DNA of 35,751 nt from a virus. The stretch covers positions 1 through 35,751 of the IMG/VR virus record IMGVR_UViG_3300032315_000525; one strand, given 5' to 3'. The position numbers were made by a program, and so were the translations under genes. Below, piece by piece: positions 3,155 to 9,423 of this stretch (position 1 is the first letter of the stretch; every line of letters begins with the position of its first letter). A model generated the notes under the pieces. That model saw only the letters and a program-made list of their open reading frames with translations, did no database searches and had not been told where the DNA came from.

Positions 3155-4165
3155 CTAGGAAGTCGCGTGGAACTTGCCGAGGGACTTCGGATTCCAGCAG
3201 ACGAGCGCGCAGATGGCGTCGATGAGACCGCGAGGTCCACCGCCCTGGTCTTCCAACTCTTGGAAGCGGGGGCGACGGCCGTAACGCAACTCGATCATGT
3301 TGGGATCAAGCAGGTAGCCACGGCGAAGCTGGGTGGCTTCGTTCTGGTCCTTCGCGTTGAACAACGAGGGCAACAGGCTGATTGTGCCGAAGTCGCCTTC
3401 AAAGGTGTCCACCTTCGCAGTGATCTTCCGAGCCTCTGTGGGCTGGGTGAACGTGCGGATGGACAACTCTTGGGCGCTGTCGGAACCAGTGGCGAAGCGG
3501 GTGAACTCGGTGAACTTACGCTTCAGCTCAGGTCCGCAAACCAAGACCATCGTGTTGATCTGACCAGTGACCGTGTAGATCGACTGGAGCATGCTCTGCA
3601 CGTTGGCTTCGGTGAGCGAGGCCATGGCGGTGTTGTTGATGCTGGCCGCAGGGGTGCGGAAGCTCTCGGGGCAGGGCAAATCAGATTGCGCTGAACTGCT
3701 GATCCAGGAACCGAGGCCGCGAGTCTTAAACGGCGTTGCGCCGCTCTGCTCTTGGCTGTCGTTGTCGGAGGCGATAGCGGATTCCAAATCACGCGCGATT
3801 TCAACCAACGAGCGGGAAACGCCACGAGCCATTTCTTTCTTCTTACCAACGCCGGCGATGTTATCGACGTTCTGCGCAAAGTCATCGACCTTGATGGAAC
3901 GGCGGAACTTCTGGGCGCGGCCTGAAAGGAGGGCGCGGTTTTTGGCGGGATCGTCGAACGTGGAAACGTCGGCGTTGGTGAGGACGCCGGCGAACGACGG
4001 ATCGTTGTAACTGTCGGCTTGCCATGAAAAAACCGAGCCATTGGCTAGGTCAGAACCCTTCTTAGCCATGGAGCTAATGGGGGTATTTTTGGCGTCAACA
4101 ACGCTAATTACGTCGGCGAGGTCTTCCCTCAAGCCGACTGCGGGGTGTGTAAGTCCTTGAGACAC
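3155..4165 (-). CDS. Major capsid protein, SU10-like (DUF5309-type)
   Basis: This 336-residue protein matches the SU10-type major capsid family (HK97 fold) in its N-terminal pattern: a THPAVGLREDLADVI segment, then NTPISSMAKKGS, then a Trp-containing segment (FSWQADSYNDPS). The C-terminal part carries YLLDPNMIELRYGRRPRFQEL, typical of this family's P-domain end. It would form the icosahedral shell. The start is a GTG at 4165, because no ATG gives the conserved N-terminus. The acidic scaffold gene lies immediately upstream (33 nt) and the decoration-like gene downstream, the standard head-gene order. Confidence 0.88.
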   Translation of the reverse strand: MSQGLTHPAVGLREDLADVISVVDAKNTPISSMAKKGSDLANGSVFSWQADSYNDPSFAGVLTNADVSTFDDPAKNRALLSGRAQKFRRSIKVDDFAQNVDNIAGVGKKKEMARGVSRSLVEIARDLESAIASDNDSQEQSGATPFKTRGLGSWISSSAQSDLPCPESFRTPAASINNTAMASLTEANVQSMLQSIYTVTGQINTMVLVCGPELKRKFTEFTRFATGSDSAQELSIRTFTQPTEARKITAKVDTFEGDFGTISLLPSLFNAKDQNEATQLRRGYLLDPNMIELRYGRRPRFQELEDQGGGPRGLIDAICALVCWNPKSLGKFHATS

Positions 4166-4198
4166 AGTATTATATATCTTTCTAAGTGAATTGCGGGT

Positions 4199-5236
4199 TT
4201 AGAGCAAACCTTCGGAGACGAATGCCTCAATGGCTTCCATTGAAACATCTCCAGACAGGATGCGGTTTTTTGCAGCGGTGCTGCCTTTGGTGGCAGATTT
4301 TGACGTGCTGACCGGCTTCACAGCGGATGGGGTTTTAGATTCTGACTTCTTTGACGAAACCTTCCTCTCAGCGGCGGCCTTTGCTTCCTTGGCCTTTTGC
4401 GAGGCCATGAGGGCTTGCTCTCCGTAGAGGGCGAGGCCGATCCAGTATTCATGCTGCGGGATGCGCAACAGTTCTGGGGCCGACTTGACCGTGGCCTGGT
4501 AGGCTTTGTTGAGATCCGTGCCGGATTTGAAGAGGTCGGGGAAGATGTTCTTCGCCGCCTCGACGGCAGGGGCTCTTTGCGAGAGCCACGCCCTGCGCGC
4601 TGGCGCATGCACGGTGAGGATGTCATCGGCTTTGATAAGGTAATCTTTCACCTCGTCGCCGCTGATAAACTGCTCCGAGCCGTCCGGTTTCTTGATCGTG
4701 GTGCCGTCACTGTTTTGCAGGGCCCAGCGTCTTACCGCTTGAGCGTTCTGCACTCGCTGTTCCAAGACTTCCTCGCCATCAACATCGGCCAACGGATTGT
4801 CGGCGGACGGGGAGAGGATGGGTCGGGTGGTCTGGTTGAGTTGGGCTTCTAGATCCGCCTTGGCGGCTTTTAGTTGCTCCAGTTCAGCCGAGACGGCGGT
4901 AGCCCGTTCTTCGGACTCACGCTGCTTGGCGACCAACTTGTCGATCCGCTTCTGAACCTTGTCCTTCGGGGCCTCGGCGCCGGCTTCTGTGTCGGCCGGC
5001 TCGTCTTCCTCGCTATCCTCGGGTTCAGTGACGGGATCTTCGCTCGGATCTTTGGATTGCTCCTCGGAGTCCTCTGTTTCGTCAGAATTGTCAGAGATCG
5101 TTTCCTCAGACTCCGTTTCGTCCTCTGGCTCTTTTTCCGGTGCGGGCGTCATGCCCAGATCGGCCAAAGCCATCGAAACTACATCAACATCGTCTGCTTT
5201 CGCTGCGACCGTATCGGTCGCCATTTCTGTCGCCAT
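4199..5236 (-). CDS. Capsid scaffold protein
   Basis: This 345-residue protein is probably the internal scaffold for procapsid assembly. Residues about 30-90 form an extremely acidic, low-complexity stretch of Glu, Asp and Ser. A Lys/Glu-rich coiled coil follows at about 90-140 (RIDKLVAKQRESEERATAVS), and a helical C-terminal half ends in a Lys/Ser-rich segment before the tail (SMEAIEAFVSEGLL). An acidic N-terminus, coiled coil and basic C-terminal region next to the capsid gene is the usual scaffold signature. Two in-frame ATGs exist (5236 and 5224); the first is preferred because a GAGGGG sequence lies upstream. Confidence 0.82.
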   Translation of the reverse strand: MATEMATDTVAAKADDVDVVSMALADLGMTPAPEKEPEDETESEETISDNSDETEDSEEQSKDPSEDPVTEPEDSEEDEPADTEAGAEAPKDKVQKRIDKLVAKQRESEERATAVSAELEQLKAAKADLEAQLNQTTRPILSPSADNPLADVDGEEVLEQRVQNAQAVRRWALQNSDGTTIKKPDGSEQFISGDEVKDYLIKADDILTVHAPARRAWLSQRAPAVEAAKNIFPDLFKSGTDLNKAYQATVKSAPELLRIPQHEYWIGLALYGEQALMASQKAKEAKAAAERKVSSKKSESKTPSAVKPVSTSKSATKGSTAAKNRILSGDVSMEAIEAFVSEGLL

Positions 5237-7998: not shown

Positions 7999-8478
7999 TC
8001 ATTGGTCTGCGAGGCTTGCCCACGTCACGCAGTCCAGTGGGCAGAAGTAGAACTCCTGCGTGTAATTCTGGTAGCGGCTGTCGGTGCGCTTCTCCGTGAC
8101 CCACCGAGCGCGGCTCTCGGCCTTGACGATGGCGGCGTGGGTCTTGGCCTTGTTCAGAATGATCCAGGCATACGGCTTCGGGCGGGCGAGGTCGTAGCTG
8201 TGGCGGGAGCAGACAATAAACTTGTCGCCGTGCGGCCAGTCGGCGGCGCCGGTGAAGTCGATGCCGCGCTTCTTAACCTCAATGCGTTGCTGCAAATAAA
8301 GGTCGCCGGAATCGGCGTGCTGCTTCCATTCGCCGTGTGTCTTGCTCTTGCTGGTCGGCGTGACCACAACATGATGCCCCTTGTTTTGCAGCCAGCGGGC
8401 CGCACACCAGACGGCATCGTGCGAGGCGTCCAGATGCTTGAGGAAGGTCAAGTGGTCTGCGTGGTCGGTGTCAGTCAT
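7999..8478 (-). CDS. Putative PD-(D/E)XK-fold nuclease coupled to the methyltransferase
   Basis: This 159-residue protein starts at the ATG at 8478, which overlaps the methyltransferase stop (ATGA at 8478-8475). It has an N-terminal helix, a beta strand (GHHVVVTP) and then GDLYLQQRIEVKKR, in which Asp59, Glu67 and Lys69 fit the D...ExK core of PD-(D/E)XK nucleases. The tail has aromatic beta segments (FIVCSRHSYD, AWIILN). An A/C-rich leader (CACAACACAACACA) precedes the start. Coupling to a DNA methyltransferase allows a restriction-like or DNA-processing role, but specificity cannot be read from the sequence. Confidence 0.62.
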   Translation of the reverse strand: MTDTDHADHLTFLKHLDASHDAVWCAARWLQNKGHHVVVTPTSKSKTHGEWKQHADSGDLYLQQRIEVKKRGIDFTGAADWPHGDKFIVCSRHSYDLARPKPYAWIILNKAKTHAAIVKAESRARWVTEKRTDSRYQNYTQEFYFCPLDCVTWASLADQ

Positions 8479-9217
8479 TGTGTTGTGTTGTGTGCTGCGG
8501 GGCCGCCAAGAAGACGCCATGCGAGAGCTGCCACTGCTGGAACTTGGGCGTTGCCACAGGCGCGAGTGCGGTCCAATCGGTCGGGAAGCCCATAACTTTG
8601 TCGAGCCAGCTCGGATTCGGATAGGTGACGCCAAAGCGGATCTTGACGTAGTGGCGAAGCTGATCCGTTCGCTGCCTGCCAGTATCCTTGCGAATAGTTG
8701 TCGTCCCTCCCTTGCCGTCTGTTGCAGTCGGAGTTGGCAACCAACCAGAACCTGGCTCGGTGATGTTGAAATCCACAGGCGTCTGCGCCAATAACTCCCC
8801 ACCGCGCATCAAGCCCCATCTCGGAAAGATCTCCAAGCACTCGACCGAGTCCGCGAACAACAATCGCTGGGCTGTTTTCCACGAACACGAATCGCGGTCG
8901 AATTTCGCCAATGATTCGGGCCATTTCGGTCCAGAGGCCGCTTTCTTCGCCCTCGATGCCCCCGCCTTTGCCGGCAACGGATATGTCGGTGCAAGGAAAC
9001 CCTCCCGAAACCACGTCAACAATTCCTCGCCACGGTCGTCCGTCAAAGGTTCGCACGTCATCCCAGATGGGAAACGGTTCCAGGCATCCGTCGTTTTGTC
9101 GCGCGACAAGAACGCTTGCGGCGTAGGCGTCGTATTCGACGGCGCAGACGGTGTTCCATCCAAGGAGCTTGCCTCCGAGTATTCCTCCACCAGCGCCTGC
9201 GAAAAGAGCCAGCTCAT
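8471..9217 (-). CDS. Long overlapping frame over the C5-methyltransferase gene (candidate overprinted gene)
   Basis: This 248-residue frame (MSWLFSQALVEEYSEASSLD...) lies in the +1 frame over nearly the whole methyltransferase gene. Its ATG at 9217 overlaps the stop of the 69-residue gene (ATGA), and its TGA lies at 8473-8471, five nt into the nuclease gene. A GAGGAGG sequence lies 10 nt upstream. I recall similar proteins beginning MSWLFS.ALVEEYS and containing WLPTPTATDG-like and MGFP..WTAL-like segments in phage and metagenome data, often near or over such methyltransferases. That memory could not be checked here. No catalytic motif of its own is visible. It could be a real dual-coded partner or an unusually long shadow frame. 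Confidence 0.5.
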   Translation of the reverse strand: MSWLFSQALVEEYSEASSLDGTPSAPSNTTPTPQAFLSRDKTTDAWNRFPSGMTCEPLTDDRGEELLTWFREGFLAPTYPLPAKAGASRAKKAASGPKWPESLAKFDRDSCSWKTAQRLLFADSVECLEIFPRWGLMRGGELLAQTPVDFNITEPGSGWLPTPTATDGKGGTTTIRKDTGRQRTDQLRHYVKIRFGVTYPNPSWLDKVMGFPTDWTALAPVATPKFQQWQLSHGVFLAAPQHTTQHND

Positions 9218-9221
9218 TCAC
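8475..9221 (-). CDS. DNA (cytosine-5) methyltransferase
   Basis: This 248-residue SAM-dependent enzyme methylates cytosine C5 in DNA, probably protecting phage DNA from restriction. Visible motifs are: motif I LFAGAGGG (residues 6-13), motif IV GGFPCTDIS with catalytic Cys77, motif VI ENS (115-117), motif VIII QHHRAR (152-157) and motif X GNAQVPAVAALAW (223-235). It is short for the family, with a target-recognition region of only about 40 residues (170-210). The start is a GTG at 9221, six nt after GAGGAGG. No in-frame ATG keeps motif I. Almost all of its DNA is also open in the +1 frame (8471-9217). Confidence 0.88.
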   Translation of the reverse strand: MNELALFAGAGGGILGGKLLGWNTVCAVEYDAYAASVLVARQNDGCLEPFPIWDDVRTFDGRPWRGIVDVVSGGFPCTDISVAGKGGGIEGEESGLWTEMARIIGEIRPRFVFVENSPAIVVRGLGRVLGDLSEMGLDARWGVIGADACGFQHHRARFWLVANSDCNRRQGRDDNYSQGYWQAANGSASPLRQDPLWRHLSESELARQSYGLPDRLDRTRACGNAQVPAVAALAWRLLGGPAAHNTTQ

Positions 9222-9423
9222 TTGCGCCCTCCTCAATATCCAACGTCGGATTCGGCGCCGACCGGATCTGGTCGATGCGGGCAGTGAGCCACTTGCCGTT
9301 GTCCTCGCGGGCAACGGTGATGTAGTCGTTCTCCATCCCGCCGTTGTCTACGCCGTATTGGATGCGGCACGGGCAGTCGATGCCGTCAACGTAGACCCGG
9401 TCTTTGGTGGGCCAGATGGTCAT
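9214..9423 (-). CDS. Hypothetical 69-residue protein
   Basis: This small protein (MTIWPTKDRVYVDGIDCPCRI...) has beta-type segments and an acidic C-terminus (LDIEEGASE). It is not recognised. It overlaps its upstream neighbour by ATGA at 9423. Its own stop overlaps both the GTG start of the methyltransferase and the ATG of the overlapping frame, so it is translationally coupled to that cluster. Confidence 0.6.
   Translation of the reverse strand: MTIWPTKDRVYVDGIDCPCRIQYGVDNGGMENDYITVAREDNGKWLTARIDQIRSAPNPTLDIEEGASE

Follow-up and report, generated by a model that had tools for sequence, protein, structure and literature searches.

Two overlapping reading frames of a phage locus probably encode complementary parts of one C5-cytosine DNA methyltransferase

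A locus in the virus record IMGVR_UViG_3300032315_000525 of IMG/VR raises the question of whether a single piece of DNA, open in two frames, encodes two products and, if so, what the second of them does. Long overlaps on one strand seldom yield two functional products, and most such cases are difficult to prove. The window, which is the whole stretch of DNA analysed (35,751 nucleotides, positions 1 to 35,751 of the record), carries on its minus strand a frame with the hallmarks of a C5-cytosine DNA methyltransferase (MTase), denoted frame A, and a second frame of the same length in +1 phase relative to it, denoted frame B. An earlier note made from the DNA alone had drawn attention to the overlap and proposed that B is a conserved dual-coded partner of the MTase, giving it no identity.

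Frame A extends from a GTG at 9221 to a TGA at 8477-8475 and frame B from an ATG at 9217 to a TGA at 8473-8471, and each is open throughout its 248 codons (Table 1). The layout at both ends is as the earlier note had described it. One GAGGAGG site (9234-9228) serves both frames, lying 6 nt from the GTG of A and 10 nt from the ATG of B, and the ATGA at 9217-9214 fuses the start of B with the stop of an upstream open reading frame (ORF) of 69 residues, which also adjoins the A/B pair in near relatives. The end of B falls just within a downstream ORF of 159 residues that begins with an ATG at 8478. The latter was called a nuclease in the earlier note, a guess for which no family match was found; its relatives occur only beside the nearest MTase pairs (33-37% identity), and its sequence 'GDLYLQQRIEVKK' is a possible PD-(D/E)XK-like motif.

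Table 1. Positions of the overlapping frames, their motifs and the neighbouring features in the window
Feature	Position	Strand	Remark or basis
Frame A, catalytic subunit of a predicted C5-cytosine MTase	8475..9221	-	GTG start; motifs I-VIII and X; 248 aa
Frame B (+1), predicted target-recognition and motif IX subunit	8471..9217	-	ATG start; 248 aa
A motif I, FAGAGGG, SAM binding	9183..9203	-	sequence and PF00145 match
A motif IV, catalytic cysteine C77 (GGFPC)	8991..8993	-	sequence
A motif VIII, QHHRAR	8751..8768	-	sequence
B target-recognition module, LPTPTATDGKGGTTTIRKDTGRQRTDQLRHY	8648..8740	-	55% identity, E 2.9e-6 (small comparison set), to the frame-0 module of single-chain MTase L261
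B motif IX, NPSWLDKVMGFPTDW	8573..8617	-	hhalign to single-chain TRD/IX/X part
A motif X, GNAQVP	8538..8555	-	begins 17 nt past B motif IX
GAGGAGG ribosome-binding site, common to both starts	9228..9234	-	read from sequence
Upstream small ORF, 69 aa	9214..9423	-	its end overlaps the starts of A and B
Downstream ORF, 159 aa	7999..8478	-	its ATG (8478) is overlapped by the stop of A

The identity of B emerged from the distribution of the MTase motifs. With the profile PF00145, frame A gave a match of E 7.8e-27 that covers only profile positions 4-162 of 324, the catalytic half. Motifs I-VIII of a C5-cytosine MTase, with the catalytic PC motif, were found in A, and the target-recognition domain (TRD) and motif IX, instead of following within that chain, were both found in B. 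The statement of the earlier note that A holds all core motifs was thus correct for I-VIII and X and incorrect for the TRD and IX. At the level of the DNA the order is canonical, running from I-VIII (A) through TRD-IX (B) to X (A) with two switches of frame, and the spacing between IX and X is close to invariant (median of 17 nt, interquartile range 17-17, over 107 loci). C5 MTases carry their TRD between motifs VIII and IX; being placed there and being variable, the region of B built from modules with an LPTP signature fits a TRD. By sequence comparison, the partner frame is most likely the target-recognition and motif IX part of the enzyme of A.

Comparison by hhalign of the C-terminal part of B with the TRD/IX/X part of single-chain relatives was strong (97.4%, E 1.1e-11). 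Directly matched with the profile of canonical C5 MTases, the motif IX of B aligned weakly (E 0.053) but in the right columns, and the C-terminal part of a single-chain relative likewise aligned weakly, in the right columns, with the IX and X motifs of canonical enzymes. As the PF00145 match in the single-chain relatives itself stops short of IX-X, the assignment of motif IX rests on hhalign together with the fold. The fold was predicted for a natural single-chain relative, which was modelled as a C5 MTase, with IX-X predicted confidently, and which aligned with M.HhaI across approximately 400 columns (E 1e-13); the LPTP modules were of low confidence even within this predicted structure. An AlphaFold2 model of B alone was poor (pLDDT 58, pTM 0.28) and was judged unfit for a structure search. 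B alone belonged to no curated Pfam or NCBIfam family, and neither B nor its profile gave a significant match in a sequence search of the PDB; it matched three PHROG families, one of which is labelled DNA methyltransferase.

Very probably, the two chains read from this DNA are the parts of one C5-cytosine DNA methyltransferase. Frame A would contribute motifs I-VIII, with the SAM site and the catalytic Cys77, then a linker of low conservation and motif X, while B would supply, after a stretch overprinted on I-VIII, the variable TRD of LPTP modules and motif IX. With starts that lie within 4 nt of each other behind one ribosome-binding site, A and B are expected to be made in step, and they would then assemble as A-B. 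We infer that the two chains bind each other, that the assembly methylates DNA and that B sets its specificity; its role would probably be to protect the phage DNA from restriction, or to mark it.

Both frames were found to be open well beyond chance. At this locus, shuffling of codons synonymous in A left B open in approximately 1% of shuffles, with 3.3 stops expected and none seen. Across 127 loci, selected for a B no shorter than 200 codons, the same procedure predicted 573 stops in B where none was observed; in the third frame, taken as control, stops were slightly more numerous than expected (1846 against 1522). Conversely, the linker of A showed no stop against 270 expected when codons synonymous in B were shuffled. 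Because the 127-locus set had been filtered beforehand on the length of B, an unselected scan with A is the fairer measure of openness. With B as query, a scan of viral contigs had recovered relatives in at least 579 viral stretches, and A was present over the same DNA in the same phase in all 80 of the loci kept. As these loci had been chosen by B, the scan was repeated independently with A as query, and B was retained in 80 of 80 loci, giving 160 of 160 with both frames for the two queries together. In the A-query loci where the start of A was matched, B was open over 226-375 codons.

A single polypeptide could also be made from the two frames by programmed ribosomal frameshifting, from A to B after motif VIII and back before motif X, and the collinearity of the DNA motifs with a single-chain enzyme and the fixed distance from IX to X agree with such a mechanism. 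It would, however, require two shifts; A has no stop across the TRD region and B none ahead of it, where stops would be expected in each, and B has its own start next to that of A with a common ribosome-binding site. Frameshifting is for these reasons considered improbable, and two separate chains are preferred.

The relatives of the pair take several forms. With single-chain relatives from phages of Gordonia and Mycobacterium, motifs I-VIII are followed in one frame by an LPTP run, 'LNxxFxEWMMGxPxGWVT' and then 'IGNGV'. In split actinophage pairs, one gene carries I-VIII and is followed by a +1 gene with LPTP-IX-X, and both are annotated as DNA methylase. A further group holds I-VIII, IX and X in frame 0 and the LPTP part alone in +1; a good part of the loci first classed as single were found to have their TRD solely in +1. 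In the nested type of the present locus, LPTP-IX lies in +1 and X is back in frame 0. Where motif IX is in an ORF separate from I-VIII, that ORF is in +1 phase in 288 of 291 loci. On their collinear motifs, the single-chain, split and nested forms are a continuum. TRD modules of approximately 32 residues that share 84-91% identity are read in +1 in certain phages, and in other phages they form part of frame 0 of single-chain MTases. The number of LPTP modules in B ranges from one to six across nested loci (L014 is an example), and recognition modules have thus seemingly been gained and lost.

These relatives bear on a further alternative, namely that B is a real protein of separate function, acting for instance in regulation or together with the downstream ORF, and no subunit of the MTase. 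Its want of a curated Pfam or NCBIfam family and of a confident fold when taken alone would suit such a protein, but the module and motif IX of B are homologous to the TRD and IX of single-chain MTases, exactly the region that A is without, and in split phage pairs of the family each gene already carries a DNA methylase annotation. A separate role is consequently judged very unlikely, in favour of a recognition subunit.

Selection was estimated by simple site counting on raw distances, with no likelihood model, for 36 independent close pairs, and the +1 shadows of 31 flanking genes served as control. For B in the overlap, dSN/dSS was 0.37 (0.32-0.43) and dNN/dNS was 0.69 (0.61-0.78), compared with 0.67 (0.59-0.79) and 0.94 (0.86-1.02), respectively, for the control; the intervals do not overlap, and purifying selection on B was thus found beyond that imposed by A. 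Resolved by region, A was constrained in I-VIII (dNS/dSS 0.11) and in X (0.13) and relaxed across the TRD (0.62), where B was constrained (dNN/dNS 0.55). The constrained frame along the DNA is therefore mainly A over I-VIII, mainly B from VIII to X, and A again in X. For the first 64 residues of B, which are overprinted, the signal was partial (dSN/dSS 0.35 but dNN/dNS 0.98).

That B merely shadows the conserved MTase frame without coding for a protein, as the mirroring of conserved A motifs in much of its N-terminal half and the weak B-like +1 shadow of canonical streptococcal MTases might suggest, is scarcely credible given the absence of the expected stops, a selection in excess of the flanking-gene control with B as the constrained frame across the TRD, and the presence of the same modules in frame 0 elsewhere, since a shadow depends on phase and is unable to change frame. 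The earlier proposal of a conserved dual-coded partner is accordingly upheld, both by homologues of B outside MTase shadows, its TRD module matching frame-0 modules of single-chain MTases, and by the frame-specific selection in homologous loci. Matches to the core of B in canonical streptococcal and clostridial MTases were rejected as B genes and taken as shadow similarity. In Streptococcus phage P0091 (1309-2172, 1460-1879), the annotation lists a +1 ORF over a complete canonical MTase as a further DNA methyltransferase; this ORF is probably also a shadow similarity.

At the sequence level, hundreds of phages and prophages share the two-frame arrangement. Of 70 loci in bacterial genomes, many of them from Pseudomonas, Acinetobacter and other Pseudomonadota, nearly all were dual-coded, and the pair was also found in a Leptospira plasmid and in phages of Mycobacterium, Bacteroides, Stenotrophomonas, Vibrio and Microcystis; with the phages of Mycobacterium and Bacteroides, B is without its first 65 residues and starts inside A. 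Public annotation mostly records one frame, A in some records and B as 'hypothetical protein' in others; both are annotated in the record of Paenibacillus phage Likha. Among E. coli genomes only 4 of 5,426 had a match, and in the chromosome of PCP07014 (1512-2273) the pair lies in a prophage-like region annotated as a single pseudogene ('DNA cytosine methyltransferase, internal stop'). In four prophage or metagenome copies (L063, L177, L183 and L203) a stop interrupts A and B is intact, reflecting either decay or sequencing error. The N-terminal pieces of A and B exchange frames in a Gallionella metagenome-assembled genome (MAG; 3886-4984), giving mixed A/B ORFs by frameshift or natural swap. 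A nested core-type pair on a contig of an Alkanophagales archaeon MAG (1413-2141), in an archaeal bin, suggests an archaeal virus or plasmid as its carrier.

Two-polypeptide MTases have precedents. The smaller gene of M.EcoHK31I is nested within the larger in another frame. This C5 MTase (YGGCCR) has motifs I-VIII and X on its larger chain and IX on the smaller (PMC3404938), and by this published motif partition the present pair is divided in the same manner. The literature assigns its predicted TRD to the larger subunit, whereas the TRD modules here are in B, and it belongs to a restriction-modification system, whereas the present pair is in a phage. M.AquI (CYCGRG), another naturally split C5 MTase, is divided within the variable region, and its second subunit carries both IX and X (PMC3404938), in contrast to the location of X in frame A here; its split resembles that of the split phage pairs (BangNhom 76/75) and not the nested type. 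The pairs BangNhom 76/75, Vash 32/33, Vorrps 6/5, Kingsley 70/71 and Likha 51/52 are of the same family, with the catalytic half in frame 0 and TRD-IX in +1. Likha 51/52 is nested as at this locus; the actinophage pairs differ in that their annotated genes overlap by 26-209 nt only, with X in the second ORF. Gordonia phage Jabberwocky gp4 and Mycobacterium phage Nimbo gp63 share the motifs and the kind of TRD module, but are single-chain LPTP-type MTases with everything in one frame. The ShiLan insertion, a mobile out-of-frame HNH endonuclease in mycobacteriophage methylases (PMC11855218), is also an overlapping ORF within a phage DNA methylase gene, but the endonuclease is no part of the methylase. 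No earlier description of this MTase family was found in the open papers searched, and against that literature the breadth of the family, its nested recognition subunit and the passage of that part between frames appear to be new.

In a tree built from I-VIII with canonical MTases as outgroup, nested forms were on the deep branches and a single derived clade (100/98) held all forms that are single-frame, split or TRD-only, and constraining the nested rows to one clade was rejected (p-AU 0.015); the rooting involves a long outgroup branch, sampling was uneven, and the clade sets were partly picked after the first tree. The deep position of the nested forms suggests an origin by overprinting with later escape, and the near-identical modules found in both frames point the same way. 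In +1 correspondence, 'DLSEMGLDAR' of A becomes 'IFPRWGLMR' of B, and 'FWLVANSDC' becomes 'GWLPTPTAT'. Tentatively, and with somewhat less than even confidence, the recognition part may have been born when LPTP and WPxWG modules arose from the +1 reading of the motif VII-VIII region, then turned into a nested subunit for specificity and subsequently escaped to frame 0 several times, yielding the single-chain enzymes.

Public annotation often records one gene of the two, and specificity subunits would thus be missed in phage methylome work. The two products here would be complementary parts of one enzyme, with hundreds of natural replicates and a constrained frame that visibly switches along the DNA. 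The family would thereby offer a large natural system for the origin, upkeep and separation of overlapping genes, and for how methylase specificity may change through the exchange of modules.
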